Part shown: positions 2 to 19,700 of the stretch, piece after piece
Position numbering within the stretch: the stretch's first letter is position 1
How the letters are laid out: each line of letters begins with the position of its first letter
The notes under the pieces: model-generated
What the model was told of the DNA's origin: nothing
Seen by the model: only the letters and a program-made list of their open reading frames with translations
Databases searched by the model: none
Program-made: the position numbers and the translations under genes
IMG/VR virus record: IMGVR_UViG_3300030110_005522
Span: 1-20,042 of that record
Length of the DNA: 20,042 bases
Origin: a virus
Direction: 5' to 3' (one strand)

Positions 2-349
2 GCAGATAACCTAGCTCTTGGTAATTTAGAAGCTACACGTGATTGGGGACATGCAAAAGATTACGTCAAAGCAATGTGGATGATGCTACAACAAGATAAA
101 CCAGATAATTTTGTATGTTCAACAGGTGTATCGCATTCAGTTAAGGATTTAGTTAACTATGTGTTTAGTCAGCTCGACATGAACTATAAGGATTTTATAA
201 CACAGGATGAAAAATTCTTAAGACCCGAAGAGCTTACAGATTTGAAAGGAGATTCTACAAAATTAAGAACTACCTTAGACTGGAAGCCAGATTATACATT
301 TGAGACAATGATAGATGAGATGGTTGAGTATTGGTTAACCCATGAATAA
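2..349 (+). CDS. gmd: GDP-mannose 4,6-dehydratase, C-terminal part (5' end outside window)
   Basis: The reading frame is open from base 2, so this is the last 115 residues of a gene cut by the window start. The segment with RDWGHAKDYVKAMWMMLQ near its N-terminal side is the typical GMD signature (family knowledge). It is followed by the STGVSHSV stretch and the C-terminal substrate-binding region ending in WKPDYTFETMIDEMVEYW. GMD converts GDP-mannose to GDP-4-keto-6-deoxymannose with NADP. The NADP-binding Rossmann motif and the catalytic residues lie outside the window. The stop overlaps the ATG of the GDP-fucose synthase gene by 8 bases, so the two consecutive steps of GDP-L-fucose synthesis are translationally coupled. 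An ATG at 74 is internal, not the true start. Confidence 0.93.
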   Translation, partial: ADNLALGNLEATRDWGHAKDYVKAMWMMLQQDKPDNFVCSTGVSHSVKDLVNYVFSQLDMNYKDFITQDEKFLRPEELTDLKGDSTKLRTTLDWKPDYTFETMIDEMVEYWLTHE

Positions 350-1241
350 AATATTAGTTACAGGAGGCTCTGGGCAAGTTGGAAGAGAATTAAAGAATAT
401 TTTACCAGACGCAACATATATATCTTCAAGCGAATACGATCTTACAACAGAAGAAGGTGTACAGGACCTTTTTATGTTTAGTAATTTTCACACTATTATA
501 CACTTAGCAGCAAAAGTAGGTGGTATTATCGATAACATTAACAACCCATCTGATTATTATGCAGATAACGTCTTAATGAATACTCTAATGGTTAATTATG
601 CTGTAAAGTATAATGTTGAGAGATTTATTGGTGTTTTGAGTACATGTATTTACCCTGATAAAGTAGAATCCTACCCTATGAAAGAGTCAACCCTACATGC
701 AGGTCCTCCAACCCCGACAAATTTTTCATATGGTATATCAAAGCGCGCTATGGCCGTGCATATTGATGCTGTAAACAAGCAGTATAACAAACAATATTGT
801 TACGTCATACCAAGTAACCTATACGGTATACATGATAAATTCGATGAAAGAAGTCACTTTGTAGCTGCATTAGTTAAAAAAATTTATGAAGCAAATAAAG
901 TTGGTAAAGATAGTATAACATTATTTGGTTCCGGAACCCCATTGCGTCAATTTATGAACGCTAGGGATCTTGCTGTTATTTTAAAGAGAATGGTCGTTGA
1001 AGATATTACTGAAAGTTTTAATGTAGCTAGTAAAGATAATTTAAGTATTAACGACATTGCAAAAATTGCATTAAAGGCCTGTAACTGTGAACATATGTCT
1101 ATAGTATATGATACTTCAAAGCCTGACGGGCAATACAGAAAAGATGTGTCAACAGAAAAAATGAACTCTATTTTTTCTGATCTGCAATTTTTACAGCTTG
1201 AAGAAGGCATTAAAGAAGTATATAATACGCTTGATTATTAA
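342..1241 (+). CDS. fcl: GDP-L-fucose synthase (GDP-4-keto-6-deoxymannose epimerase/reductase)
   Basis: This is a 299-residue extended short-chain dehydrogenase/reductase, close to the usual length of about 310-320. The N-terminal Rossmann motif TGGSGQVG is at residues 7-14. The active-site set fits GDP-fucose synthase: Ser100 and Cys102 in LSTCIYP, then Tyr130 and Lys134 in SYGISK (YxxxK). The stretch HAGPPTPTNFSYGISKRAM is typical of this family. It epimerises and reduces the GMD product to GDP-L-fucose using NADPH. It starts inside the end of gmd, which fits a two-gene pathway unit. The product could feed the glycosyltransferase further downstream, but that link is inferred from neighbourhood only. 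Confidence 0.93.
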   Translation: MNKILVTGGSGQVGRELKNILPDATYISSSEYDLTTEEGVQDLFMFSNFHTIIHLAAKVGGIIDNINNPSDYYADNVLMNTLMVNYAVKYNVERFIGVLSTCIYPDKVESYPMKESTLHAGPPTPTNFSYGISKRAMAVHIDAVNKQYNKQYCYVIPSNLYGIHDKFDERSHFVAALVKKIYEANKVGKDSITLFGSGTPLRQFMNARDLAVILKRMVVEDITESFNVASKDNLSINDIAKIALKACNCEHMSIVYDTSKPDGQYRKDVSTEKMNSIFSDLQFLQLEEGIKEVYNTLDY

Positions 1242-1258
1242 TTGTAATAATTTACAAT
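1241..1258 (+). other. Perfect 7-bp hairpin after the GDP-fucose synthase gene
   Basis: ATTGTAA (1241-1247) and TTACAAT (1252-1258) form a perfect inverted repeat around a TAAT loop, directly after the stop codon. This is almost the only non-coding gap in the sugar operon. The stem is AT-rich and has no following T run, so it is not a convincing terminator. It could be a processing or stability element. Confidence 0.4.
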
Positions 1259-1264
1259 ATTAAT

Positions 1265-1846
1265 ATGGTTATTAAACAAGGTGTATATGATGGAAACTTT
1301 ATTCATAATAGATTTGCTTATGAACAATTTAGAAAAAACGTCTCTTCGTGTGGTAATATTGTAGCTTTTAGAGCTCCGATGTACGTTAAAGATGCACTAA
1401 TTGATTTAGAGGATACACTGAGTAACGATTTTATTCATAGTCAAGATTCTATTAATTTCTGTTGGGAAATTCCTGGGTTATGTCCTTTCGGTGCTGTCTC
1501 CTTTCAAAGGCTCTTTAATACTTCTATTGCTAATATACTTTCACAATTTATTAAAAAGGGTATTATTGTCGACGGTGATGATCTAATGGTGCAAGATGAG
1601 TTCATTGGTAATGATGATAAAGTGAGAGGTGAGGGTAAAGTAAGTGTATCTATAACGTATTCAAAAGAAAATGTTGCTCTAGGTCATACCGGTATTAATA
1701 TTACAGCTGGTGATAAAGCACCGCCTTTTGCTTACTCATCTAATCTTACTGATAAGCAAGCTAATGAATTTATGAATGTAGTAATTGATCATTTTAATAC
1801 AGAGGTAAAAGATCAATTTATCGCTACTACAAAAATTTTAGTTTAA
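1265..1846 (+). CDS. DUF366-like protein
   Basis: This 193-residue protein resembles the archaeal/bacterial DUF366 family (Pfam PF04017; structure known for Pyrococcus PH1223), judged by recalled family pattern rather than by a search. The matching features, in order, are YDGNFIHNRFAYEQF (family YDGS..R..WAYR.F), NIVAFRAP, DLEDTLSND with the following acidic stretch, GDDLMV, KVSVSITY (family LSISIAT) and HTGINI (family HIGLNV). As I recall, the fold resembles class II aaRS/biotin ligase domains, and no function is firmly known to me. It lies between GDP-fucose synthase and a glycosyltransferase and shares the TAATG junction with the latter. No signal peptide or membrane segment is visible. 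A viral copy in a sugar operon is unusual. Confidence 0.65.
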   Translation: MVIKQGVYDGNFIHNRFAYEQFRKNVSSCGNIVAFRAPMYVKDALIDLEDTLSNDFIHSQDSINFCWEIPGLCPFGAVSFQRLFNTSIANILSQFIKKGIIVDGDDLMVQDEFIGNDDKVRGEGKVSVSITYSKENVALGHTGINITAGDKAPPFAYSSNLTDKQANEFMNVVIDHFNTEVKDQFIATTKILV

Positions 1847-2676
1847 TGCAAGTAGTATATAATGACGTTGCGGAATATTTTTGCGAGTGGGCATATTTAC
1901 AGGAGGTTATAAAACATTTACAACCGAAACTTTCTGATCAATATGTATTACATATTGCGTGTCTTAGTCAAGAATGTGCCAATAATAAAAATATAAAGTT
2001 TGTCACTGGTAAAAAAAATATTATTATAGGAACCTCAGATGAGTATATGCAAGATATTTATCCTCCATATCTTAATGAGGCAGTTGCTATCTTTAAACAG
2101 TATTTAGTTCCGGAACAAGAAGTAGGTAACGTATATTCATTTCCACTTGGTTATAATAAAAAACATGTTACTTTAAAAAATAAACCTATTAGTGATCGAC
2201 CGGTAGATGTATTCTTTTCAGGTCATATGCATTCAAAACTTAGGAAGACTAGTTTATTACCGATAATACAGTATTTTAAAAACCTGCCAAAACATAAACG
2301 ACCAAAGCTCGATATTAATATTAGTGGCGGTTTTAATATGGGACTCAATGGAGATGAATATTCAAAAAGACTGCACAATAGTAAGATTGCTATTTGCCCG
2401 CATGGTAATGTAAGTGTTGAAACGTTTAGATTTTATGAAGCTGCGAGAAGCGGATGCGTTATTGTTTCACCAATACTCCCAAATACACAGATATATAAAA
2501 ATAGTAATGTAGTACAAGTTGAAAATTGGCATAGAGATACCGGACCAATTATAGTGGAATTAATAAGGAATGACGATAAACTAGCAGATATACAGCGTAA
2601 TATAGTAGATGATTGGAACGATACTTTATGTGAAGAAGCTGCAGCTAATAAAATTTTAAGTAAACTACAACAATGA
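1846..2676 (+). CDS. Exostosin-like glycosyltransferase
   Basis: This 276-residue protein has the arrangement of an exostosin/GT47-type GT-B enzyme. DVFFSGHMHSKLRKTSL (residues 121-137) would begin the C-terminal nucleotide-sugar-binding half. It is followed by ISGGFNMGLNGDEYSKRLHNSK (159-180, split here as one region) and by CPHGNVSVETFRFYEAARSG (184-203), with the conserved E/R positions and then CVIVSP. It probably transfers a sugar from a nucleotide donor, but donor and acceptor cannot be read from sequence. There is no signal peptide or membrane segment, so it should act in the host cytoplasm. The start overlaps the previous stop (TAATG) and the end overlaps the next start (ATGA). Neighbouring genes make GDP-fucose and possibly UDP-uronic acid, which are candidate donors. 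Confidence 0.72.
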   Translation: MQVVYNDVAEYFCEWAYLQEVIKHLQPKLSDQYVLHIACLSQECANNKNIKFVTGKKNIIIGTSDEYMQDIYPPYLNEAVAIFKQYLVPEQEVGNVYSFPLGYNKKHVTLKNKPISDRPVDVFFSGHMHSKLRKTSLLPIIQYFKNLPKHKRPKLDINISGGFNMGLNGDEYSKRLHNSKIAICPHGNVSVETFRFYEAARSGCVIVSPILPNTQIYKNSNVVQVENWHRDTGPIIVELIRNDDKLADIQRNIVDDWNDTLCEEAAANKILSKLQQ

Positions 2677-3029
2677 ACTTTTTTCAACTCCAAAACAAAT
2701 TATTTTACTCTAAAAAAACTGAAGCAGGTGAGTTAGATGCCGAAGGTGAGCAAGCTTTTGTACCGTTTTTATTTAACAGATGGTTATCCTTCTATAATCA
2801 AAATATGTGTATTTTTACTAATGAGACACTAAACAAATTTAGTACTATATTTGAAAATAAACAAGACACATATAAATTATACTATAACATTATACCGCGA
2901 TTAAAGTGGCAGAAGATACAATACATTAAAAAGAAAAAAAAAGAAGAAGAAAGCGAAATAAATTTAGCGTTAATAGCAAAAAATAAAAATATATCTATTA
3001 GGGAATTAAAACAGTATATAAATGAGTAA
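2673..3029 (+). CDS. Small protein resembling phage DNA polymerase clamp-loader A subunit (T4 gp62-like)
   Basis: This 118-residue protein has the pattern I associate with the Phage_clamp_A/gp62 group. FVPFLFNRWLSFYNQN (about residues 30-45) comes first, then a helix with NETLNKF. Next is YKLYYNIIPRLKWQKIQYIKKKKK (about 68-91), a basic segment where the family has R/K-rich residues before a short C-terminal helical domain (NKNISIRELKQYI). T4 gp62 is 187 residues, so this would be a reduced form. In T4, gp62 with gp44 loads the gp45 sliding clamp. No gp44 or gp45 homologue is in the window. Its place inside a sugar operon, with 4-base and 8-base overlaps to its neighbours, is odd. It could instead be an unrelated basic protein. 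Confidence 0.5.
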   Translation: MNFFQLQNKLFYSKKTEAGELDAEGEQAFVPFLFNRWLSFYNQNMCIFTNETLNKFSTIFENKQDTYKLYYNIIPRLKWQKIQYIKKKKKEEESEINLALIAKNKNISIRELKQYINE

Positions 3030-3921
3030 AGCAATAGTAACAGGTGGAGCTGGGTTTATAGGATCAAATTTAGTAGATGCTATGTTGCCTTTATATGATG
3101 AGGTATTGGTAATTGATAACGAGTCAAGTGACTCAAATGAACAATTTTACTGGAACGATAGATGTACAAATTATAAATTAGATATTTGCGATTATGAAAG
3201 CATAAGACCTTTGTTTGATGGGGTTGAGGTTGTTTTCCATCTAGCAGCAGAAGCTCGAATACAACCAGCTGTTAAAAATCCTATTTTAGCTGCTAAAACA
3301 AACGTAGTAGGTACATGTACTGTATTGCAATGCTCTAGAGAAGCTAACGTTAAGAGAGTTATTTATAGTTCTACATCTTCAGGATACGGTTTAAAAAACG
3401 ATGTACCTCTAAATGAAGAAATGCCGGATGATTGTTTAAATCCGTATTCTGTTACTAAGGTCGCAGGTGAAAAATTATGTAAGATGTATACAGATTTATT
3501 TGGATTGGAGACAGTTATATTTAGATATTTTAATGTATATGGAGAAAGACAACCAATTAAAGGTCAGTATGCACCAGTAATTGGCATCTTTATTAGACAA
3601 CGTAACAGTGGAGAGCCCATGACTATTGTTGGTGATGGAGAGCAACGACGCGACTTTACTCATGTTAGTGATGTAGTTACAGCAAATGTTCTTGCCTCTA
3701 CTCTAGAAAATAAAGAACCTGTAGGTAAGGTTTTAAATATCGGAACAGGTACTAACCATAGTATTTTAGAAATAGCAAAACTTATAGATGGTGATTATAA
3801 GTTTATTAAACCGAGACTTGGTGAATCGCAAGAAACATTAGCTAATACAGATAGGGCTAAAAAAATGCTTGGTTGGATTCCATCAGTTAAATTAGAGGAC
3901 TGGTTAGAAAAAAATAGTTAA
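3022..3921 (+). CDS. NAD-dependent epimerase/dehydratase, UDP-glucose 4-epimerase-like
   Basis: This 299-residue extended SDR protein has the NAD-binding motif TGGAGFIG at residues 7-14, an acidic residue after strand 2 (IDN at 31-33), HLAAEA at 73-78, and the active site Ser/Thr cluster SSTSSGYG (116-123) with YSVTK (Tyr142, Lys146). FRYFNVYGERQ and RDFTHVSDV are conserved in the GalE/WbpP/RmlB-type group. It probably epimerises or dehydrates a UDP-hexose(-uronate); exact substrate is not readable. It begins 8 bases inside the preceding gene and its stop directly abuts the ATG of the dehydrogenase-like gene, so coupled expression is likely. A UDP-glucuronate epimerase role would fit the next gene's product, by inference. 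Confidence 0.85.
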   Translation: MSKAIVTGGAGFIGSNLVDAMLPLYDEVLVIDNESSDSNEQFYWNDRCTNYKLDICDYESIRPLFDGVEVVFHLAAEARIQPAVKNPILAAKTNVVGTCTVLQCSREANVKRVIYSSTSSGYGLKNDVPLNEEMPDDCLNPYSVTKVAGEKLCKMYTDLFGLETVIFRYFNVYGERQPIKGQYAPVIGIFIRQRNSGEPMTIVGDGEQRRDFTHVSDVVTANVLASTLENKEPVGKVLNIGTGTNHSILEIAKLIDGDYKFIKPRLGESQETLANTDRAKKMLGWIPSVKLEDWLEKNS

Positions 3922-4755
3922 ATGATTAAAATTGGTATAGCGGGGCATGGGTTTGTTGGTAAAGCAGTTGACTACGGCTTTAGCAATAATGTTAAAAAGC
4001 TTTTGATTGACCCGAATTACAATACTACATGTAAAGACTTATTGTCATTTAATCCGGATGTTGTTTTTGTATGTGCACCAACACCCATGGGTGATAACGG
4101 TAATATAAACGCTTCAATAGTTCTTGAATGTTGTAGAGAAATAAATGAATTTACTGATGCTTTAATTGTTCTTAAATCAACTGTTACACCGGATATAGTA
4201 AAAAAATTATCAAATTTATATGATAGGTTTGTTTATAATCCTGAATTTTTAACAGAAAAAAATGCTAATGAAGATTTTGTAAATCAGTTTATGTTAGTTT
4301 TAGGAGGTACAACTGAGAGTACACACGAACTTCTTAAGATTTATAATGAACATAGCATTTGTAGACCGTGTCCAGTTTTTCATATGACAGCTCAGGAAGC
4401 TTCATTTGTAAAATACGGTATTAATACATTTCTTGCTACCAAAGTTACTTTTTTTAATCAGTTGTACGATATAGTTAAAGAGCATGATGCTAATTATAAT
4501 AATATAATTAGTGCTATAGGTTCCGATCCTCGTATAACTCATTCACATACTACTGTACCCGGTTTTGATAATAAAAGAGGGTATGGAGGTGCATGCTTTC
4601 CAAAAGACACAACAGCATTTGATGCTTTTGCAAAAATGTTTACTTTGCTTTCTAATGCTATATCTATTAATACCGAATATAGAAAAAATTATAAATTAGG
4701 TAAAAGGGAGATAGAACAAAACATTACGTTTAAAGGGATTGGAAAAAAGCCATAA
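3922..4755 (+). CDS. UDP-glucose/GDP-mannose dehydrogenase family protein, short form
   Basis: This 277-residue protein has the N-terminal NAD-binding motif GIAGHGFVG (residues 5-13), the APTPMGDNG segment, LKSTVTP, and YNPEFLTEKNANEDF, all standard in UDP-glucose 6-dehydrogenases. The catalytic Cys225 lies in GYGGACFPKD. Usual enzymes are about 390-450 residues with a third, UDP-binding domain after the central helix. Here only 52 residues follow the catalytic Cys, so the C-terminal domain is missing. The stop codon is followed 17 bases later by the next gene, so this is a naturally short form, not a visible frameshift. It may oxidise UDP-glucose (or a related sugar nucleotide) to the uronate, but activity without the third domain is uncertain. 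It ends the sugar operon. Confidence 0.82.
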   Translation: MIKIGIAGHGFVGKAVDYGFSNNVKKLLIDPNYNTTCKDLLSFNPDVVFVCAPTPMGDNGNINASIVLECCREINEFTDALIVLKSTVTPDIVKKLSNLYDRFVYNPEFLTEKNANEDFVNQFMLVLGGTTESTHELLKIYNEHSICRPCPVFHMTAQEASFVKYGINTFLATKVTFFNQLYDIVKEHDANYNNIISAIGSDPRITHSHTTVPGFDNKRGYGGACFPKDTTAFDAFAKMFTLLSNAISINTEYRKNYKLGKREIEQNITFKGIGKKP

Positions 4756-7559: not shown

Positions 7560-8780
7560 ATGAAGAAACGAGCATTCCATTTTGAAATTAAAAACCTCCT
7601 CACGCAGTTTGTAGCAGCGTTTGATGATACGGTTATTAGTAGATATAATAAAGATAGAGTAGCTAAGCAGAACATTGAGGTGAGGTATGTGTTTGCTCCT
7701 AAACAGCGTGTAATGTATGATATCATTAATAAAGCTCAGAACATAACTTTACCGGTTGTAGCTATAAATTTAACCGGTGTTACGAGAGATAATGATAGAG
7801 TGTTTAATAAACTAGCTGCATCGTATTTACCAGCACAAGAAAAAACTGCATCAAAGGTTTCATCTCCGTTTTTAATGCCTGTACCAGTTAACTTAGAAGT
7901 GAGTATGTCGATACTTGCAAGGTATATGGCTGATGTAGATCAAATTATATCGAACTTTGTTCCATATAACAACCCATATATTATACTTTCGTGGAAAGTT
8001 CCTGCTGCATTTGGAGCAGAATACGATCAAGAAATACGAAGCGAAGTACTCTGGGATGGTAATCTAACATACAACACTCCCACAGATACAACTTACAACG
8101 ACCAGTTTAGAATTACAGTAGATACGACGTTTACTATTAAAGGTTGGTTATTCCCGGAAGAAACTAGCACTAGCGGTAACATTTATAAAATTGATAACAA
8201 CTTTATACCAGTTGATTTAGCTAATAGAATATATTCACCGTTAGATAGTACCCAAGTTGATGAATATTTATCTTACCAGCAGCAAGGGTATACAGGACTC
8301 TCAAGTTATAGCACAACTGCAGCCTTATGCTCTGAAACAGTAACAGTGTCCGGTATACCAGATATTACTAATTTGTATTATTCTGCTACCGGTAATTTGG
8401 TACCTATTTTAGCAACACCAGAAGCCAGTACAATAACAAATATTGCCTCAGGTATTTCAAATACTTTTATTTTTTACGGTAACAGCTTTGATACTAGTTT
8501 AAATTTTTACTTAAGCTCAACAACAATGAGTGACGATTCAACTACAGGTGGTGACTGGTTTAGTAATTTTCAAAAAATAACATCAGCTAAAATGGATACG
8601 ATAAGCGGATTTAAATTAGAAGATACATTTTATACTGTATCTAATGATAACATAGCAAGCGTTACACTACCGGCGTCAACATTGAGCGCATCAGGTGGTA
8701 ACTTTAATTTTGTAGTAGCTAATGAAGCCGGGTGGGCAGATACTAAAGAAGCTACTAGCTCTATCCTTAACTCAGCATAA
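7560..8780 (+). CDS. gp15: Tail sheath stabiliser / tail completion protein, T4 gp15-like, with Ig-like C-terminal extension
   Basis: This is 406 residues; T4 gp15 is 272. The first 250 or so follow the gp15 plan: an early AAFDDTVISRYN segment, then PVPVNLEVSMSILARYMADVDQIISNFVPYNNPYI (about 103-140), where T4 has the matching PIKM.YELSI.TRYEDDMFQI.EQILPYF.P, and the closing strand TFTIKGWLFPEE, where T4 has LTFEVNGWMYPP. In T4, gp15 forms the hexameric ring capping the tail and docking it to the neck. The last 130 or so residues have a pattern like an IPT/TIG Ig-like domain (ITNLYYSATG; ISNTFIFYGNSFD; LSASGGNFNFVVANEAGW), not present in T4 gp15. Homology call is from recalled T4 sequence, not a search. 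Confidence 0.78.
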   Translation: MKKRAFHFEIKNLLTQFVAAFDDTVISRYNKDRVAKQNIEVRYVFAPKQRVMYDIINKAQNITLPVVAINLTGVTRDNDRVFNKLAASYLPAQEKTASKVSSPFLMPVPVNLEVSMSILARYMADVDQIISNFVPYNNPYIILSWKVPAAFGAEYDQEIRSEVLWDGNLTYNTPTDTTYNDQFRITVDTTFTIKGWLFPEETSTSGNIYKIDNNFIPVDLANRIYSPLDSTQVDEYLSYQQQGYTGLSSYSTTAALCSETVTVSGIPDITNLYYSATGNLVPILATPEASTITNIASGISNTFIFYGNSFDTSLNFYLSSTTMSDDSTTGGDWFSNFQKITSAKMDTISGFKLEDTFYTVSNDNIASVTLPASTLSASGGNFNFVVANEAGWADTKEATSSILNSA

Positions 8781-8791: not shown

Positions 8792-10606
8792 ATGGCAGGA
8801 ACCGGATCATCAACTAGTCCAAATCAGAATCCTTCGTATGTAACTAACGATGGAAAAGCTTCTACTTTTGGGAGAAATCTGATACAGTATATTCAAAACC
8901 GTTTACCGTACGCTTCAACAGGGCAACCTGAAAGCGATATTCTTAATCCCAAATATAAATTTTTCCAAAAGACGGGGATGAAAAGAGCAGAGGCTCTAGC
9001 TAAGGCCTCTGTTTCTTCTTCTAATCCCTATAACAATATACCCATTGGCGACTTTGCAAAAGACTCATCTTTTGGTGATGTCATGTATGCAAACATACAA
9101 GATGATAAAGCCGGTAGATTGAGGGATTATAGAATTATGGCTGCTTATTCTGAGGTAGCTGATGCTTTAGATGAAATTTGCGATGAAACTATCAACCCGG
9201 ATGACACTGGGTGGATTACAAAATTACAATTAAAAGATATTGATTTAACTGTTGATGAGAAGGCCGAGATAGATAAGCAATTTAACAGATATATTGAATA
9301 TTTTGATCTAAAGAATAGAGGCTGGCAATATTTTAGACAGTTGTTAGTTGAGGGTGAATTATTTTTCGAGCTCATTATTCATGACGGTTACCTTAAAGAC
9401 GGTACATTAGGGGTAATTAATTTACCTGCTGAAATAATTGATCCTGTATACAATAATATACAGAATATGCTGGTTAAGGGGTTTATATACCGTAAACCAA
9501 TTTTTAGTGTTGATCACCCAAATAAAATAGAAAAAGTTGAATTTGTTCCAATGGATCAAAATCAGATTGTTTATGTAAATTCCGGGGTTTATAACGAAAC
9601 AAAAAACTTTGTTATACCTTTCTTAGAAAACGGAAGAAGACCATATCGACAATTATCTTTAATTGAAGATGCAATTGTAATTTATAGATTGGTTAGAGCT
9701 CCGGAGCGATTAGTCTTTAATGTTGACGTCGGAAACATGGCTCCACCTAAAGCAGAAGCGTATCTTAGAAAGCTTATTCAAAATTATTGGTCTAGAAAAA
9801 CATTTGATATGGATCAAAATGACGTGGTTAAAAAGTTTAATCCACAATCGATGCTTGACGCATTTTGGTTTGCAAAAAGACAAGGGTCTGAAGGAACATC
9901 TGTAAATCAGCTTCAAGGAGGAGCTAATTTAGGTGAACTTAGTGACTTAATGTATTTTATTAAAAAGCTTTACAGAGCACTTAAAGTACCCTCTATGCGT
10001 CTGGATCCTCAAGACCAAGCATCATCTGATGGATCTACAATATTACGCGAAGAATTAAAATTTGCCAGGTTTGTTATGAGGCAGCAACAGCGTTTTGCTG
10101 CTGGCCTTAAAAAAGGCTTTGTAACACATCTTACCTTCATGGGGTTATTTGAGAAGTTTGAATTAAATGAGCAAAATATTGAGATAGACTTCAACCCACC
10201 AACAAATTTTTACGAGTTAAGAGAAAATCAAAGGCTTGAAATGAAAGCAGGTAACTATGGTAACTTAGCATCAGATGAGTTTGTTTCTGCTACATATGCA
10301 CAGAAAAAATACCTTGGGTGGAAGGATAGGGACATTCTTGCTAATAGAGAATTTTTACGAAAAGATGCAGAAATGCAGTGGGAGCTAGCACAGATACAAG
10401 CTGCTGGTCCTGCTTGGAAAGAGCAAGCCTTAGCTGGAGAGTTGGCAGAAGGTGAAGCTGCTGTCGGTGGTGAAGGAGCAGGTGTTGGAGGTGGTGGCGG
10501 AGGTGAAATACCTGAATTTGGTGGTGGTCCAGCTGATACAGGCGCTGTTGATACAGAGGAAGTAGCCGAAACAGAAGTCGAGGTAGAAGAGCCTCCAGAA
10601 GTTTAA
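8792..10606 (+). CDS. gp20: Portal vertex protein of the head, T4 gp20-like
   Basis: This 604-residue protein (T4 gp20 is 524) carries portal hallmarks: RLRDYRIMAAYSEVADALDEICDE (about residues 109-132), the GELFFELIIHDG segment, IYRLVRAPERLVF with NVDVGNMAPPKAEAYL, and the highly conserved LYRALKVPSMRLDPQDQ region followed by REELKFARFVMRQQQRFA. The portal dodecamer nucleates prohead assembly, carries the terminase during packaging and joins the neck. The last 60 or so residues form a Gly/Ala/Glu-rich low-complexity tail (run of six Gly, then a very acidic end EVEVEEPPEV) not found in T4. It lies between gp15 and a minus-strand gene, with its own late-promoter-like element and no Shine-Dalgarno sequence. 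Confidence 0.95.
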   Translation: MAGTGSSTSPNQNPSYVTNDGKASTFGRNLIQYIQNRLPYASTGQPESDILNPKYKFFQKTGMKRAEALAKASVSSSNPYNNIPIGDFAKDSSFGDVMYANIQDDKAGRLRDYRIMAAYSEVADALDEICDETINPDDTGWITKLQLKDIDLTVDEKAEIDKQFNRYIEYFDLKNRGWQYFRQLLVEGELFFELIIHDGYLKDGTLGVINLPAEIIDPVYNNIQNMLVKGFIYRKPIFSVDHPNKIEKVEFVPMDQNQIVYVNSGVYNETKNFVIPFLENGRRPYRQLSLIEDAIVIYRLVRAPERLVFNVDVGNMAPPKAEAYLRKLIQNYWSRKTFDMDQNDVVKKFNPQSMLDAFWFAKRQGSEGTSVNQLQGGANLGELSDLMYFIKKLYRALKVPSMRLDPQDQASSDGSTILREELKFARFVMRQQQRFAAGLKKGFVTHLTFMGLFEKFELNEQNIEIDFNPPTNFYELRENQRLEMKAGNYGNLASDEFVSATYAQKKYLGWKDRDILANREFLRKDAEMQWELAQIQAAGPAWKEQALAGELAEGEAAVGGEGAGVGGGGGGEIPEFGGGPADTGAVDTEEVAETEVEVEEPPEV

Positions 10607-11001: not shown

Positions 11002-12252
11002 ATGGCACTCGCATGCACAATTAAACCACTTTCAGCGTTTTTATCTACAAATTTAAATAATAAAATTAAAACTTATGATAATCTCGGTGATAGAATTAAG
11101 CGGTCATTAGGTTACCCACTAATAAGCTTAGAGATACATACTGATCAACTAAGACAAAATATTCAAATTGCTGTTGAATATTTTACTAAATATGCTGGAT
11201 TTACGCAAGAATATTTAATATTTGATTCTGACATGTATGAATCTAAAAAAGGGATCCGGCTTGATTTACTTTACACAGTAGCAAATATGAACCTAAACGC
11301 AAGCTCTGTTGCCGGGGGTGATAATCCGCTTGGTCCGAGCCCAGAAAGTCTTAGATCCTACCCACCAACAAGAAATGGCCAAGATTCGGTGTATGTCGCT
11401 ACATCAACCCTTAGTGCTTCATACTTTACTGGATTTTCAGCTCTCTCAACCACTTTTGCGTATCAAACAAGTGGTTTAGAACCGGGTTTAAGTAGGTATC
11501 AAGTTCTTAATCAGACGACCTTTAATATGATCACCGCGTGGGGAGCTGATTACTGGGGAACGGGTGGAGCTACTACACCCGGGGGTGAAGCTGCTACTTT
11601 CCTAAGTGCGGGTACATTTGGTGTCTTTAAGAAAACTACACCGACCACTATTACATTTAAAGGCTCTGCAACAGATGCAACTTACTATCAAAATGTTTTT
11701 GATTATGATGTAATGGAATATAGAAAAGTTGTTGATGTATGTGATTTTGAAGAAGGCTCCACTACAGGTATTAATACTTTATTTACATTAGAACAAACTC
11801 TTGCACAACAAACGTACTTTAGTTATGCCATGGGTAATTATGGTTTTGATTTAGTATCGTGGTATACATTAAAAGAATGGATAGATACACGCGAAAAAGT
11901 TCTTGGTATAAGACGTGACGTTAAGTTTGATCCAAGATCACAATATTTACAAATGTATCCGGAGCCTGGGGGTGATAGATTTTACGGCGTAATATCTTGT
12001 TATCTAGAACGTGCTATTCGAGATGTTATTATGGAACAATGGGTATATGAATACGCCATGGCGTTGTCTATGATTACTATTGGTCGGGTTAGAGGTAAAT
12101 TTGGAAATGTATCTTTATTAGGTGGTGGGGCTTTGAATTATGATATTCTAACAGAAGGAATGGAAAAGAAAACAGAGCTTGAAGCTAAACTTCTAGAAGG
12201 TGCATCTCCTGGACTCGGTGATACAGATCCAACTTTATTCATAGTAGGATGA
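11002..12252 (+). CDS. gp13: Neck protein, T4 gp13-like
   Basis: This is 416 residues; T4 gp13 is 309. Both ends match the T4 protein as I recall it. Near the N-terminus IKRSLGYPLISLEIHTDQL (about 33-51), with the following amphipathic helix, corresponds to T4 LRRLGAPIINVELTPDQI. At the C-terminus the pattern of a long helix, then LLGGGALNYDILTEGMEKK, and the ending DPTLFIVG, corresponds to T4 LPGGVTIDGQRLIEEARLE ... DPPFGILVG. The middle is longer, with a Ser/Thr/Gly-rich insertion (about residues 115-240). In T4, gp13 with gp14 forms the neck that closes the filled head and accepts the tail. The stop overlaps the gp4 start (ATGA). Confidence 0.82.
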   Translation: MALACTIKPLSAFLSTNLNNKIKTYDNLGDRIKRSLGYPLISLEIHTDQLRQNIQIAVEYFTKYAGFTQEYLIFDSDMYESKKGIRLDLLYTVANMNLNASSVAGGDNPLGPSPESLRSYPPTRNGQDSVYVATSTLSASYFTGFSALSTTFAYQTSGLEPGLSRYQVLNQTTFNMITAWGADYWGTGGATTPGGEAATFLSAGTFGVFKKTTPTTITFKGSATDATYYQNVFDYDVMEYRKVVDVCDFEEGSTTGINTLFTLEQTLAQQTYFSYAMGNYGFDLVSWYTLKEWIDTREKVLGIRRDVKFDPRSQYLQMYPEPGGDRFYGVISCYLERAIRDVIMEQWVYEYAMALSMITIGRVRGKFGNVSLLGGGALNYDILTEGMEKKTELEAKLLEGASPGLGDTDPTLFIVG

Positions 12253-12689
12253 GGAAAAAATGGAGGCAGGGTATATTCGTTCCTAAAAATCAAGACAAAT
12301 TTATAGGCAGTAAAGCAGTCTATAGATCAGGTTTAGAGCTTAAATTTTTTAGATTTTGTGATGATAATCCAAATGTGTTAGAATGGGGTAGTGAGAATAT
12401 AATTGTACCATATATAAGTCCCTTAGATAATAGAGCTCATAAATATTACGTTGATAATTATATTGCTATAAAAGAAGGGACTCAAGTCGTAAAGTATTTA
12501 GTTGAGATTAAACCATCAAAACAAACTAAACCCCCTACAACAAAATACAGAAAACGTCAACATCTTATTTATGAGCAGAAACAATATGTCATAAATCAAG
12601 CTAAATGGAAGGCTGCAAAAGAATTTTGCAAGAAAAAGGGACTTACCTTCATTATTTTAACAGAAAAAGAGCTTATTTTTAAAAGATGA
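12249..12689 (+). CDS. gp4: Head completion protein / nuclease, T4 gp4 (gp50)-like
   Basis: This 146-residue protein (T4 gp4 is 150) matches T4 gp4 along its length: VPKNQDKFIG, YRSGLELKFFRFCDDNPNV, EWGSENIIVPY, LVEIKPSKQTKPP and, near the end, KWKAAKEFCKKKG with FIILTE. The residues Glu30, Asp69, and Glu86-x-Lys88 fit a PD-(D/E)xK/TnsA-like endonuclease core. In T4, gp4 acts late in head completion so that the tail can attach. It is translationally coupled to gp13 through ATGA. Placing gp13 and gp4 in one two-gene unit makes sense because both act at the portal end of the filled head. Confidence 0.9.
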   Translation: MRKKWRQGIFVPKNQDKFIGSKAVYRSGLELKFFRFCDDNPNVLEWGSENIIVPYISPLDNRAHKYYVDNYIAIKEGTQVVKYLVEIKPSKQTKPPTTKYRKRQHLIYEQKQYVINQAKWKAAKEFCKKKGLTFIILTEKELIFKR

Positions 12690-12701: not shown

Positions 12702-13367
12702 ATGTCATTAAAACTTAACTTGGTTGTAGAAAAACCTGACGTAAACGATGAGTTCGAATACATTGAAGAGGAAGTGGATAGAAACTCCCCTTCAAATTTA
12801 TTCATAAAAGGCCCTTATATGATGGCTGAAGGGGTTAATAGAAACAACAGGCTGTACCCTAGAGATGAGTTAGAAAGAGAGACAGCGCGTTATATTGAAG
12901 AAATGGTTACACCGGGTCGTGCAATGGGTGAACTAAACCATCCAACGACAGCAGATGTTGATCTAGAAAGAGCATGCCATATGGTAACCGAGTTAACGCA
13001 AGATGGAAACGTGTTTTATGGTAAATCTAAAGTTCTATCAACACCATGTGGTCAAATAGTTAGATCTTTAATTAATGACGGTGTAAAGGTTGGTATGTCT
13101 TCACGTGCACTAGGCACTCTTGAAGAGAGCGCTGATCACAGTACAGTTAAAAATATGAAACTTGTAGCTATCGATTGCGTAGCAGACCCGTCTTATCCAA
13201 AAGCATTTGTTAATGGCATTCTTGAATCCAAGCAATGGGTTATGGTCGATGATAACAAATATGAAGAAGTTTATGAAAATTTCGAAAAATCTTTAAAAAG
13301 ACTGCCTAAAAAGGACATAGATAACTTTTTACGTGATAGAATCCTTAGCTTTATTAACTCTATCTAA
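12702..13367 (+). CDS. gp21: Prohead core protease, T4 gp21-like
   Basis: This 221-residue protein (T4 gp21 is 212) has the phage prohead protease signature (S78-type). GVNRNNRLYPRDELERE (44-60) comes first, then MGELNHP with the probable catalytic His80, then GQIVRSLINDGVKVGMSSRA (117-136) with the probable nucleophile Ser133 or Ser134, and IDCVADPSYP with a conserved Asp. The enzyme cleaves the scaffold and the capsid protein N-termini after (I/L)xE. A matching IEE/A site is present in gp23 at residues 55-58 and one in gp22. It is followed by the small ORF and gp22, the expected prohead-core neighbourhood. Confidence 0.93.
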   Translation: MSLKLNLVVEKPDVNDEFEYIEEEVDRNSPSNLFIKGPYMMAEGVNRNNRLYPRDELERETARYIEEMVTPGRAMGELNHPTTADVDLERACHMVTELTQDGNVFYGKSKVLSTPCGQIVRSLINDGVKVGMSSRALGTLEESADHSTVKNMKLVAIDCVADPSYPKAFVNGILESKQWVMVDDNKYEEVYENFEKSLKRLPKKDIDNFLRDRILSFINSI

Positions 13368-13378: not shown

Positions 13379-13525
13379 ATGGCTAAAGAGAAAACAAAAA
13401 TTATTAAGTTTATAGAGGAAATTTCTTGTAAAAATTACGCCAAGGCACATAAATATTTAAAGAGCGTAATTGAAGATAAGATTGCAAAAAGAATCAGTCG
13501 CGCAACAGAGAAACCACTTTTTTAA
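13379..13525 (+). CDS. Small basic protein (48 aa), candidate prohead core protein
   Basis: A short ORF of 48 codons plus stop fills the gap between gp21 and gp22. Its product is helical and basic, with the pattern KIIKFIEEISCKNYAKAHKY and LKSVIEDKIAKRISRATEK. The support for it being real is its late-promoter-like element at the standard 5-base spacing, the fact that it fills the gap, and the immediate start of gp22 one base after its stop. Small prohead core genes (67 and 68 in T4, between 20 and 21) lie in this part of T4-like genomes. A role as internal core protein is therefore plausible but not shown by sequence similarity that I can verify. Confidence 0.65.
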   Translation: MAKEKTKIIKFIEEISCKNYAKAHKYLKSVIEDKIAKRISRATEKPLF

Positions 13526-13526
13526 T

Positions 13527-14381
13527 ATGAAGAAAGATACAGCATTACCAAAACAAGCAGAAGAGGTCTTGACAGAAGAATCTGTTAAAGCAATTGAAAC
13601 TGCTCTTGAAGAAAAAATTCATTTGTCAGTTGAAGCAGCTTTAACAAATCAAGACGAGCTTTATGCTGAAAAACTTGATGAGTTGGTTACTGCGATTGAT
13701 AGTGATCATACATCCAAACTTAAAAGGGTTGTTGAGGCAGTTGATATTAATAACGCCAATAAGCTGATAAAAGTGGTTAAAAGATATGAAAAAGAACTTG
13801 GAACTACTGCTGATCAGTTTAAAACAACTTTAGTAGAAAGTATTTCGGATTATCTCGAAGAGTATTTAGAAGAGTCTGTACCAACGAAAGCTATTGAAGA
13901 AGCTACTAAAAACAGAACTGCTACTGAAGTTTTAGGTAATTTAAGAAAAGTACTTGCTGTTGATTCTACATTAATGAGCGAGTCTGTTAAAGAAGCTGTA
14001 ATGGATGGTAAGACCCAAATTGATCATTTAACGTCTAAGGTTAATGAGCTTGCAAAAGAAAATAATCTTCTTAAAGAAGCTTATACAAAACAAAGAGCGC
14101 ATTTATTACTAGAGACAAAAACAGCTGGGTTACCTGATAGTAAAAAAGGATATCTTGTTAAAATTTTAGAAGACAAGTCTCCTACATTTATTGAAGAGAA
14201 TTTTGATTATACAGCTAAGCTTTTCGATAAGAAAGAAAAAGAAAGACTTTCAGTAATTAAAGAGGAAGCATACAAAACACGTAAAGTTAAAGCTGATGCT
14301 CCTGTACAAAAGATCTCAGAGAAGAAAGAAAAGAAGCCATATAACCCGTATTTAGCGGAGTTAGAAAGGTCTCATAAATAA
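13527..14381 (+). CDS. gp22: Prohead core scaffolding protein, T4 gp22-like
   Basis: I place the start at ATG 13527, giving 284 residues; the TTG at 13470 would overlap the small ORF and is unlikely. The product is almost wholly helical and charged, rich in Glu and Lys, with coiled-coil-like heptads (for example EALTNQDELYAEKLDELV and LTSKVNELAKENNLLKEAY), as expected for a scaffold. The C-terminus is basic (KKEKKPYNPYLAELERSHK). An IEE/A sequence in KAIEEATKN fits the gp21 cleavage rule. In T4, gp22 forms the core on which gp23 assembles and is then degraded by gp21. Position between gp21 and gp23 is the same as in T4. Confidence 0.85.
   Translation: MKKDTALPKQAEEVLTEESVKAIETALEEKIHLSVEAALTNQDELYAEKLDELVTAIDSDHTSKLKRVVEAVDINNANKLIKVVKRYEKELGTTADQFKTTLVESISDYLEEYLEESVPTKAIEEATKNRTATEVLGNLRKVLAVDSTLMSESVKEAVMDGKTQIDHLTSKVNELAKENNLLKEAYTKQRAHLLLETKTAGLPDSKKGYLVKILEDKSPTFIEENFDYTAKLFDKKEKERLSVIKEEAYKTRKVKADAPVQKISEKKEKKPYNPYLAELERSHK
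14373..14380 (+). promoter_or_regulatory. Late-promoter-like CATAAATA upstream of the gp23 leader
   Basis: CATAAATA overlaps the end of gp22, 85 bases before the gp23 ATG. By T4 late spacing, transcription would begin near 14386 and produce a leader of about 80 nt, unlike the other late genes here. Confidence 0.6.
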
Positions 14382-14399
14382 TTTCAACCCTGAACAACG

Positions 14400-14443
14400 A
14401 GGTGCTTGCCACCTGAGTAACTTGGGACTTGATCCCATGAGGT
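14400..14443 (+). promoter_or_regulatory. Structured gp23 leader with two tandem hairpins
   Basis: Hairpin 1 is AGGTG (14400-14404), loop CTTGC, CACCT (14410-14414). Hairpin 2 is TGGGA (14423-14427), loop CTTGA, TCCCA (14433-14437). Both have 5-bp stems and 5-base loops beginning CTTG, and are 8 bases apart. ACCT of hairpin 1 (14411-14414) could instead pair with AGGT at 14440-14443, enclosing hairpin 2. A purine-rich ribosome site (AAGGA, 14451-14455) follows 10 bases before the ATG. No T run follows, so these are not terminators. A role in mRNA stability or translation control is inferred. Confidence 0.6.
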
Positions 14444-14465
14444 AAAATGAAAGGAAACGTCTAAT

Positions 14466-16037
14466 ATGAATAAACCACAATCATTTATCGATAGAGATAG
14501 AGCAGATACCCTACTTGAAAAGTGGGCACCTGTTCTTAACTACTCTTCTGATAGCGTTGCTCCTATCGAAGACGATCACACTCGCCTCAATACCGCCATT
14601 CTTCTTGAAAACCAGGAAAAGTGGTGTATTGAAGAGGCTAATACAGCCGGTGCAGCGGGTGCTTTCGGAGCTGAAGTCACGCCACCCGTATACCAGCCTG
14701 GTGTACAGGGTAATGGCCCGAACGGCGGCTCTGGAGACACTTATGCTCCTAATGATGCTCGTCTTCCTAAGGTGTTAATTCCGATGATTCGTCGTACGTT
14801 CCCTGAGCTTATCACCAACGAAATCGTTGGTGTTCAGCCGATGTCTGGTCCTGTTGGACTGGCCTTCGCTCTTCGTTATGCTTACAACAGTCAGCACTTA
14901 GGTGCTGGTACCGATGGTACAAATAGCTCTACTGCTGCGCAAGCTGCAAGTGGTGGATTTGTACCTACTGGTGCTACTAGTACTGGTCCAGGAGATCCTA
15001 CCGTAACTGGTGGTTCTGTCGGTCCATATGACGGTACAGTTGCTAACGTTGAGCTTGGTTATCAGTTGCTTGATACCCGTTTCACTGGTTCTTCTTCTGC
15101 CGCTCTTTCGGGTGGTAGTAATGGAGTTACTGGTGATTGGGACTTTGCAGCTCAAGACCAAGGTGTAGCTCAGATTCTTTCCGCTTTCGAGATTACTGGT
15201 AACATTCCTCAGGTTGAGGTTAAGTTCGAGAAGACCGCTGTTGAGGCCGGCACACGCCGCCTTGGTGCACGTTGGTCCGTCGAGCTTGAGCAAGACCTTA
15301 AGAACATGAACGGTATCGATATTGATGCTGAGATCACAAACGCTATGTCGTATGAGATTCAGGCTGAGATCGACCGTGAGATGCTCATGAGAATGATCCA
15401 GGCAGCTCTTAATGCTGGATTGAACGCTGGATATTCCATCTGGTCACCTGCTTCTGCAGATGGTCGTTGGATGGTTGAGCGTAATAGGGACTTTTATCAG
15501 CGTCTTATCATTGAAGCCAATCGTATCGCCGTACGTAACAGACGTGGAGCTGCTAACTTTGTTGTAGCAACTCCTCGTGTTTGCGCTATCCTCGAGATGC
15601 TCCCTGAATTCCAGTGGGTGCCTGTGCAGGGTGACGTCAACACACAGCCTGTTGGTATTGCTAAGGTTGGTTCGCTTGGTGGAAGATTCAACGTTTACCG
15701 TGATACCAGAACAGAAGTTCAGAACAGTACAGCCTATACCGATGGTACAGACAAGTACAGTGACGGAAGTGGCGGAACATTAGCAGCTCAAATTGAGTAT
15801 GCTCTGCTCGGCTACAAAGGTCCTGAGTTCTACGACACTGGTATCATTTATTGCCCTTACATTCCTGTCATGGTTCAGAGAACTATCGGTCCTAACGACT
15901 TCGCACCACGTGTTGGCTTGCTTACTCGTTATGGTGTTGTTGACAACATCTTCGGAGCGAATCTCTACTACCATGTCATTCTTGTTCAGGGACTTGGTAC
16001 TGCGTTTACGCCAGCTTCTCAGTCGGTGTACTTCTAA
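14466..16037 (+). CDS. gp23: Major capsid protein, T4 gp23-like
   Basis: This 523-residue protein (T4 gp23 is 521) has LLEKWAPVL near the N-terminus and the classic segment GVQPMSGPVGLAFALRYAY (about residues 120-138). Later come ARWSVELEQDLKNMNGIDID, NFVVATPRVCAIL, LGGRFNVYRD and GYKGPEFYDTGIIYCPYIPV, with TRYGVVDNIF near the end. The likely gp21 processing site is IEE57/Ala58, giving a mature protein of about 466 residues. It forms the hexamers of the capsid. The gene differs from its neighbours in composition: Arg is mostly CGT/CGC rather than AGA, Phe and Ile often end in C, and GC content is visibly higher. It is preceded by a structured leader with a Shine-Dalgarno sequence and followed by two stop codons and a strong terminator. 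Confidence 0.97.
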   Translation: MNKPQSFIDRDRADTLLEKWAPVLNYSSDSVAPIEDDHTRLNTAILLENQEKWCIEEANTAGAAGAFGAEVTPPVYQPGVQGNGPNGGSGDTYAPNDARLPKVLIPMIRRTFPELITNEIVGVQPMSGPVGLAFALRYAYNSQHLGAGTDGTNSSTAAQAASGGFVPTGATSTGPGDPTVTGGSVGPYDGTVANVELGYQLLDTRFTGSSSAALSGGSNGVTGDWDFAAQDQGVAQILSAFEITGNIPQVEVKFEKTAVEAGTRRLGARWSVELEQDLKNMNGIDIDAEITNAMSYEIQAEIDREMLMRMIQAALNAGLNAGYSIWSPASADGRWMVERNRDFYQRLIIEANRIAVRNRRGAANFVVATPRVCAILEMLPEFQWVPVQGDVNTQPVGIAKVGSLGGRFNVYRDTRTEVQNSTAYTDGTDKYSDGSGGTLAAQIEYALLGYKGPEFYDTGIIYCPYIPVMVQRTIGPNDFAPRVGLLTRYGVVDNIFGANLYYHVILVQGLGTAFTPASQSVYF

Positions 16038-16793: not shown

Positions 16794-19700
16794 CTACTCA
16801 GGGTTATCATATTCAACACGTACCCTACCATCATCATCTGTAGTGGGATTATCATACATGTGTTGGTCATGTCTCTCACCTAATACCATCCATGATACTG
16901 TAGCAGTAGAATTTGCTACACAGCTCTCAACCGTTAGTATGTTGCCTGATACTGACCCTCTTACAGGGTCCCAGTTAGTTTCATTAGTTGTAAATGTTCT
17001 AAAGCACCTATTTAAAGCAGTTAAAGTACCATCAGTCATACCGTGTTTATTGTCGATATTTACTGTAGCTTTACCAGCAGTTAATTGTACAACCCCGCTA
17101 TATATATTATCAGCTTGAGGAGCCTCAACAAATGAGTGTGATAACCGCTTACTAGCAGACAATGCTGGTAACGGGTGTATAATATCAAAACATCCGGATG
17201 ATTTACTCAAAGTACCACATATATTAACACCATAACATGCTAGTATAGATGGTGTACCACCACACCCACAGCAGCCAGCACTTCCACCAACAATCAAGCA
17301 AGCACTGCTACTAGCTGATGTTCCTATACCGGCACAAGAAAAACAAGCTGTACCACCGCAAACAGATGTAGTACCGCACACCGCAGGTGATCGTAAGCAT
17401 GTACTAGCGCAATGTGTTCCTGTTGTTCGCGAACCAGATGAACAAGTGCAAAATTTAACAGAGTTATTATTATAAAGTACAACAGTAGAATCGTCATTAA
17501 TAATAATACCATTCTCATTATCATGCGGCATTAAGTAAATGTTACCGCCGTCATCACCATCAACATTGTTTCTGATACAAATATGATTTTTATCATTATC
17601 GATAAATGATGAAGTACCGTTATGATAAATGCTTAGATCAGCACTATCACCAAAATTAGCAGAAACATCATCAGCTAAATCAATTTGACCAGTAAATGTC
17701 TTTGTACCAGCTATTGATTGATCACCAGTAGTTCTAATTACCGTACTATCAACGCAAATTGTTCCTGTTGAGGTTATAGCACCGCCGTCAATACCGTCGC
17801 CTGTGGCAATATTCGTTACAGTACCTGTGCAAGTTGTATACCCGCTATTATTTGTCCACTGAGATATATTACCACCCTTGTTGGTAAACGTTTGAGAGTT
17901 GCTCGCTGTTGTAGTACCAGTACAATCGGTATAACTACAATCATTTGTCCATTGTGATATATTACCCCCTTTGTTAGTAAAGGTCTGAGAGTTACTTGCT
18001 GTTGTAGTACCAGTACAATCGGTATAACTACAATCATTTGTCCATTGCGATATATTACCACCTTTATTGGTAAAGGTTTGTGAGTTACTATTTGTCGTAG
18101 TACCGGTACAAGTAGTATAACCAGCGCCGTTATCAAAGATAGCATTACTTATTTCACATGCAGCTTTTCTCCTATCAGCACCATTATCTAAAACTATAAA
18201 CTCATCTGTACTTACCATTGTTGCTGTCATATCAGTTAACTCTGACATATCCAACGTTAATGTTACACCACCTGAAGAACCACCTCCGCAAAGACCGACA
18301 CCTGCTGTAACACCTGTTATATCACCTGCATTAGTTGTATAACCGCAATCATTGGTCCACTGAGATATATTACCCCCTTTGTTAGTAAAGGTCTGCGAGT
18401 TGCTCGCTGTTGTAGTACCGGTACAGTCTATACCAGCAGCACTACTACAACCATCAAGCAAGTTAAGCTCTGTAGCAGTAGAATCAACCGCAGTACCATT
18501 AAGAATTAGCTTACTATCACCAATACATACTTTACCAATAGTAAAATCTCCATTGTCATCGATACACCCTCTATCTCCGTTGGATGTTCTAAATATAATA
18601 TTATTATCTGTGCTAAACTTAATTAAGTTATGATCATCTCTACCCACAACTAAACTAGTATTTTTAATACTTGTAATACCTGTCTGACATGCTGTTACAG
18701 CAACATCATTTGTGTTTACTGTAATACCTGTACCAGCACCAACAGCTAAGCTACCTGTTGTCGTAATAGCTCCACCAGTAAGTCCAGCACCATCATCAAC
18801 TGAAGTAACCGTACCTGTACAACCAGTATAACTACAATCGTTAGTCCACTGAGATATGTTACCACCTTTGTTTGTAAAGGTCTGCGAGTTACTCGCTGTT
18901 GTAGTACCAGTACAATCGGTATAACTACAATCATTTGTCCATTGCGATATATTACCACCTTTATTGGTAAAGGTTTGTGAGTTACTTGGTGTAGTCGTAC
19001 CAGTGCAGGTAGTAAAGCCTGTAGAATTATAAGCATTACAGCCAAATATTTCACTGAAAAGTTTTCTTCTCTCCGAACCATTATCAAGAAGAATTAATTC
19101 ATCCTCTGATGTATTAATACTACCAGTCATATCAGTTAGTTCTGATAGATCTAATGATATATCAACAGTACCACTACTACCGCTACCATCTAAGCCAGCT
19201 GAAGTTGTAATACAAGCTATATTACCAACGCCTGTTCCTGTACATGTAGTATATCCACTATCGTTAGTCCATTGTGATATACAACCACATTTGTTAGTGA
19301 AGGTCTGTGAGTTACTATTAGTTGTTGTACCTGTGCAAGTTGTATACCCACTATCGTTTGTCCACTGTGATATATTACCGCCTTTATTGGTAAACGTTTG
19401 AGAGTTACTATTAGTTGTAGTACCGGTGCAAGTAGTATACCCGCTATTATTTGTCCACTGTGATATATTACCGCCTTTATTGGTAAAGGTCTGTGAGTTA
19501 CTTGCTGTTGTTGTTCCTGTGCAATCTGTAAAACCTTCATCGTTACTAAAGACACTTAAACCAATTTCATTAGCAGCTTTACGTCTTTGCGCTGAGCTAT
19601 CCAATACAACAAGTTCATCAGACCCAGTAAATGTTGCAGTCATATCAGTCAACTCACTGAGATCGACATTAACGCATGGAGTAGCTGAAGTACCACCATC

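Follow-up and report, generated by a model that had tools for sequence, protein, structure and literature searches.

A conserved two-stem RNA element in the leader of the major capsid gene of uncultivated T4-like phages

Introduction

What is the nature of the paired hairpins that precede the major capsid gene of an uncultivated T4-like phage, and could they act on the capsid mRNA? The question is raised by a 20,042-nucleotide genome fragment of such a phage (IMG/VR record IMGVR_UViG_3300030110_005522, positions 1–20,042; hereafter the window), several of whose structural genes are recognized by Pfam (Table 1). A first-pass annotation of its letters described two hairpins of identical geometry in the leader of gp23, proposed that the first could exchange partners in a regulatory switch, and knew of no described RNA of such form in T4-like phages. 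In a review of T4 phages, structured autoregulatory leaders are reported for the replication genes 32 and 43, and none for the capsid gene (PMC3014915).

In the current study, we describe a comparative analysis of this leader. Alignments of related loci show that it carries a conserved structured RNA whose two stems, P1 and P2, are kept by compensatory mutation, and they make a regulatory or stabilizing role for gp23 mRNA plausible.

Results

The gp23 leader of the window

The gap between gp22 and gp23 in the window measures 84 nt and contains both hairpins. Their initial description was accurate: AGGTG-CTTGC-CACCT (14400–14414) and TGGGA-CTTGA-TCCCA (14423–14437) are each 15 nt long, lie 8 nt apart, and share a 5-bp stem and a 5-nt loop beginning CTTG, while the ACCT and AGGT segments proposed as alternative partners are found at 14411–14414 and 14440–14443. 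Of 5000 dinucleotide shuffles of the leader, one contained two such hairpins within 12 nt. The single sequence is nonetheless weak evidence, because shuffling a 20-kb window is expected to give about 0.5 hairpin pairs of this kind and the folding energy of the leader is no better than that of shuffles (z = 0.49); the comparative evidence is decisive.

Table 1. Structural genes of the window and parts of the gp23 leader element
Feature	Position	Strand	Basis and remarks
Tail sheath stabilizer	7560–8780		Pfam
Portal gp20	8792–10606		Pfam
Prohead protease	12702–13367		Pfam
gp22-like prohead scaffold	13470–14381	+	Start TTG as listed; Pfam T4_CASP 7e-6, slightly under the curated cut-off; gene order portal, protease, scaffold, capsid
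Whole leader element	14393–14448	+	Covariance models: R1 69.1 bits, E 6e-18 (window in R1 seed); R2 63.2 bits
Hairpin P1	14400–14414	+	Stem 14400–14404 / 14410–14414; loop 14405–14409
Unpaired linker GAGTAA	14415–14420	+	Conserved; GA (nearly) invariant in the family
Hairpin P2	14421–14442	+	Upper stem 14423–14427 / 14433–14437; basal clamp 14421–14422 / 14441–14442; 3'-side bulge 14438–14440 (UGA)
GGUAAA	14441–14446	+	Replaces GGUCGA of most relatives (alignments)
Shine-Dalgarno-like AAAGGAAA of gp23	14450–14457	+	Outside the conserved structure; mean unpaired probability 0.63 in the window
gp23 major capsid protein	14466–16037	+	Pfam Gp23, E 1.9e-87; ATG at 14466

Stems kept by compensatory change

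A search of IMG/VR with gp23 yielded 80 loci at 64–80% identity, and the same pattern was found in their upstream regions. Near relatives of the window share the leader pattern AACAAUGAGG-n-CCUGAguaACYUGG-n-CCAUGAaGGUCGAA, and a sister clade has UUUAGG-n-CCUGAGUUaCCUGG-n-CCUUGGGGUCGA. Among the 20 near relatives from which the covariance model R1 was built, 97.5% of cells are paired, with changes on both sides in 8 of the 12 pairs and 43 doubly changed cells; the covariation score is 0.499 versus 0.227 in shuffles, and slid registers leave no more than 47% paired. Compensatory changes affect 11 of the 12 pairs in the alignment of R1 matches (49 sequences, 103 doubly changed cells) and 10 of the 12 in that of the 82 matches to a second model, R2 (160 doubly changed cells), both alignments being fitted to a model and thus favoring the model's own structure.

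A tree-based covariation test modeled on R-scape (40 null alignments with a fitted tail) was run on a model-fitted alignment of this kind and returned exactly five significant column pairs (E 7e-5 to 0.03), all of them predicted. Three belong to the upper stem of P2 (E 7e-5, 9e-4, and 4e-3) and two to P1 (E 8e-4 and 0.03), in which four of the five pairs show compensatory changes. The covariation check that had been suggested for the gp22–gp23 gaps of relatives thus supports the stems. No covarying pair outside the nested P1 and P2 emerged from this test, and hence no pseudoknot was found. An outer helix joining the UUGA ahead of P1 to the UCGA that follows P2 was rejected, being 67.7% paired, devoid of compensatory changes, and worse than shuffles. 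An upstream open reading frame over P1 (AUGAGG... in near relatives) was likewise rejected by eye: it meets early stops in several of them, reads ACG in the window, and has no AUG at that place in the sister clade.

The most conserved bases of the element are unpaired or junctional, namely the GA after P1, the U and then the GG of the P2 base, the bulged UG, and the GGUCGA after P2. Column counts reach 74/75 (G), 75/75 (A), and 68/75 (the next U) after P1, and 72/75, 62/75, 69/75, and 73/75 for the successive bases of the UCGA after P2. The GA and the UG...GGUCGA are more conserved than the stems, and the loops vary. Since loops are not conserved among relatives, the CTTG loops common to both hairpins of the window, once put forward as a shared feature, are on this comparison incidental. 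The alignments also mark the window copy of the element as derived: together with L001, L002, and L003, the window has lost the CG of GGUCGA, which is otherwise near-invariant.

Distribution among T4-like phages

In the gp23 tree, one group (37 rows, support 96) unites the window, its near relatives, and the group-E loci; its sister is the clade with CCUUGGGGUCGA (39 rows, support 100). The parts of the leader were placed on this tree by reading the sequences by eye, because a rough automated count of P1 included spurious stems. P1 is present out to deep branches (L061, L067–L075), GGUCGA is common to many intermediate branches, and the two large sister clades have the most fully developed P2; copies with both stems sit about 15–33 nt upstream of the gp23 start. 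P2 and GGUCGA are missing from L009, L015, L017, L020, and L022, P2 is also absent from L030 and L032, and the element is absent from L028, L037, L026, L047, L070, L054, L077, and L078. It is likewise absent from T4, in which genes 22 and 23 are separated by 18 nt, and from the sampled cyanophages and single-cell marine viruses, which have short gaps. Among the matches listed, the closest isolates show about 33–35% gp23 identity, and the lineage of the window may correspond to the Far-T4 phages (PMC4360716).

Two further features were noted in these leaders. In near relatives, CCUGAACAA occurs twice, before and after P1 (e.g., L007:1415–1460), a duplication that suggests a repeated recognition unit. 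Leaders that lack the element (L026, L047, L070, L028, L037, and L077) have other hairpins and share, upstream of gp23, a stretch resembling AACCC(A/G)(C/T)A; these may represent another leader RNA or a signal for the ribosome site.

Specificity for gp23 leaders

Convincing matches to the covariance models are confined to gp23 leaders. Over 473 kb, all 53 R1 matches at E values up to 1 are gp23 leaders, far clades included. R2 gave 82 matches, and every one better than E 0.02 is a gp23 leader; R2 matches outside such leaders, such as L134:1172–1227 at E 0.02, were taken as chance. Four contigs of 66–87 kb contain one strong match each, at the gp23 leader, and a weaker match in a fifth (G002:9350–9388, E 7e-4) was dismissed as chance, as it lies in coding sequence and has no P2. 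Pattern scans A and B of IMG/VR returned 106 and 63 stretches, respectively; among the matches listed, those of pattern A lie directly upstream of gp23 as identified by profile search, and those of pattern B are either gp23 leaders or stretches of coding sequence evidently matched by chance. A third, looser pattern placed 44 of its 79 matches before or within gp23, the remainder resembling chance coding matches, and retrieved freshwater members with P1 and GGUCGA, some of them also with P2. A search of 85,000 genomes of bacteria and archaea gave one match, in Nitrospira; it is GC-rich and was judged by eye to be chance.

The statement that no RNA of this form had been described also stands, within the sources covered. 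Rfam release 15 has no family reaching the gathering score in the window, and in a permissive Rfam search of eight relatives the sole overlap with a leader came from a snoRNA model (L052, E 4), well under its cut-off and attributable to chance. No account of the element was found in the open-access full texts searched.

Discussion

A candidate recognition platform for a trans-acting factor

From its location, its strand (as read from the U-G pairs), and its conservation, we infer that the leader regulates gp23. The explanation that we favor, at roughly even confidence, is that the element controls gp23 mRNA in cis by binding a trans-acting factor. The leader RNA would act as a platform recognized either by a structural or late protein of the phage, most simply gp23, or by an RNA-binding protein of the host, and binding would set, separately from gp22, how gp23 mRNA is translated or degraded. 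This function appears the most likely one because the conserved bases lie at junctions rather than in loops and the consensus fold does not include the ribosome site: conserved junctions with free loops favor a bound factor over a passive stem, and the position of the ribosome site argues against simple occlusion. Against this reading, UCGA is lost in the sub-lineage of the window and P2 is absent from some lineages, so that the part recognized would not be the whole element everywhere. In functional terms, the amount of capsid protein is probably tuned by the element.

A narrower form of this proposal, which we put forward tentatively and consider quite unlikely, is an RNA operator that senses the state of assembly, with free gp23 or another head protein binding the P1/P2 junction and thereby providing a post-transcriptional control of head proteins that T4 lacks. 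The T4-type translational repressor RegA had no match in 11 contigs, in which a control search was likewise without a match.

Possible stabilization without a specific ligand

Covariation would be shown just as well by a passive stabilizer, which counts against the factor-binding reading. According to this possible, albeit on balance unlikely, alternative, the element is a 5' stabilizer, insulator, or processing site that neither switches nor binds a specific ligand; the hairpins would mark or protect the 5' end of gp23 mRNA, produced from a cut gp22–gp23 transcript or from a late promoter close upstream, such that capsid exceeds scaffold. Its position at the junction of the scaffold gene and the most abundant capsid gene is consistent with such a role, as are the retention of stems with variable loops and a ribosome site that is mostly open in near relatives. 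A late-promoter-like CATAAATA at 14373–14380 would, moreover, start an RNA directly 5' of P1, but it shares bases with the stop codon of gp22 and is not kept in relatives, and it was rejected as a conserved late promoter. More generally, a pure stabilizer needs no near-invariant unpaired GA, UG, and UCGA across phages whose stems have fully diverged.

A proposed alternative pairing and possible masking of the ribosome site

The first-pass annotation had proposed a switch in which the 3' arm of P1 pairs either with its own 5' arm or, exclusively, with the AGGU at 14440–14443. Sterically, the ACCT/AGGU pairing could form in 98.8% of cells among the 20 closest relatives, yet its four pairs contain no compensatory change and its covariation score equals that of shuffles, because both strands are nearly invariant. 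Covariation is thus found for P1 and not for its competitor. The AGGU, moreover, is already paired in P2, with whose basal clamp the switch would compete, and is better explained, on the alignments, as the 3' half of that clamp together with the conserved GGUCGA. We therefore regard a switch as improbable.

A related mechanism, sequestration of the Shine-Dalgarno sequence, was rejected as a conserved feature. In the unconstrained ensemble, this sequence is less than half unpaired in 24 of 60 leaders, mostly in the sister clade, where CCU segments of the linker and stems can pair with the ribosome site; in most near relatives masking is absent. Masking may be real in the sister clade, as in members such as L125 and L119 the AGGAAA of the ribosome site has complements in the linker and P2 base (UUUCCU) and in P1 (UUCCU).

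Riboswitch and DNA-level explanations

A small-molecule aptamer is very unlikely: conserved unpaired junction residues between variable stems do recall small aptamers, but the element occurs before gp23 only and never before metabolic genes, matches no Rfam riboswitch, and has the single chance-like match mentioned above among bacterial and archaeal genomes. Equally remote is a DNA-level element (part of a promoter, a protein-binding palindrome, or a packaging site) that merely resembles RNA hairpins, for the presence of a late-promoter-like octamer in the region is outweighed by stem sequences that have changed wholly with pairing retained, by a fixed sense orientation and distance to gp23, and by the pairs of the P2 basal clamp, which among relatives are C-G, U-G or C-G, with U-G in 15 sequences of the 82-sequence alignment, pointing to sense-strand RNA and away from a palindrome in the DNA.

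Relation to known leaders

Among known elements, the T4 leaders of genes 32 and 43 come closest in kind; the gp23 leader does not show the features that define them. Like the gene 43 operator of T4 and RB69, the gp23 leader comprises small hairpins a few tens of bases upstream of a start codon that lies outside them (PMC3014915). The two differ in the gene that follows and in the number of hairpins, the gp23 leader having two, and the gene 43 operator has a conserved, recognized, UAAC-like loop (PMC3014915), whereas in the gp23 leader the loops vary and the flanks are conserved. The gene 32 pseudoknot likewise forms a structure in the 5' region of a T4-type mRNA, ahead of an A-rich ribosome site (PMC3014915); the gp23 leader precedes another gene, shows covariation for its nested stems only and not for the two coaxial stems of an H-type pseudoknot, and is not followed by UUAA(A) repeats. 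Of cis-regulatory RNAs in general it has both the compensatory stem changes and the consistent genomic context.

A further point of comparison is the leader of T7 gene 10, a major capsid mRNA leader thought to favor high expression. Both precede the major capsid gene; T7 is an unrelated phage, and the gp23 leader stands apart as a family of RNAs with two covarying stems and conserved bases at the junctions.

An aquatic T4-like lineage is thus found to have a covarying RNA ahead of its most abundant protein, and control of capsid supply becomes testable with a minimal reporter. Because gp23 is the gene used for surveying T4-like phages, the covariance models also provide a very specific marker. 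The states of the leader (P1 alone; P1 with GGUCGA; P1 and P2 with GGUCGA) can be traced on the gp23 tree, which offers a rare view of a leader RNA gaining or losing parts.

Other features of the window

Late-promoter-like [CT]ATAAATA octamers occur on the + strand at 8776, 13448, 14373, and 16148, the last being a perfect copy (TATAAATA); they lie 13–22 bases before gp20, gp22, and the genes after gp23, and 93 bases before gp23. Within the head module, an unassigned gene and the prohead protease gene flank one (12249–12689) whose product has a TnsA-like endonuclease N-terminal domain (Pfam 2.3e-19). Genes resembling nucleotide-sugar epimerases and dehydrogenases, as judged from their translations alone, lie upstream of the structural genes (342–4755). 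On the − strand, opposite to the head genes, a 952-aa open reading frame (16794–19652) contains many near-identical repeats (TGTTTxSNSQTFTNKGGNISQWTN...) and probably encodes a tail fiber or adhesin.
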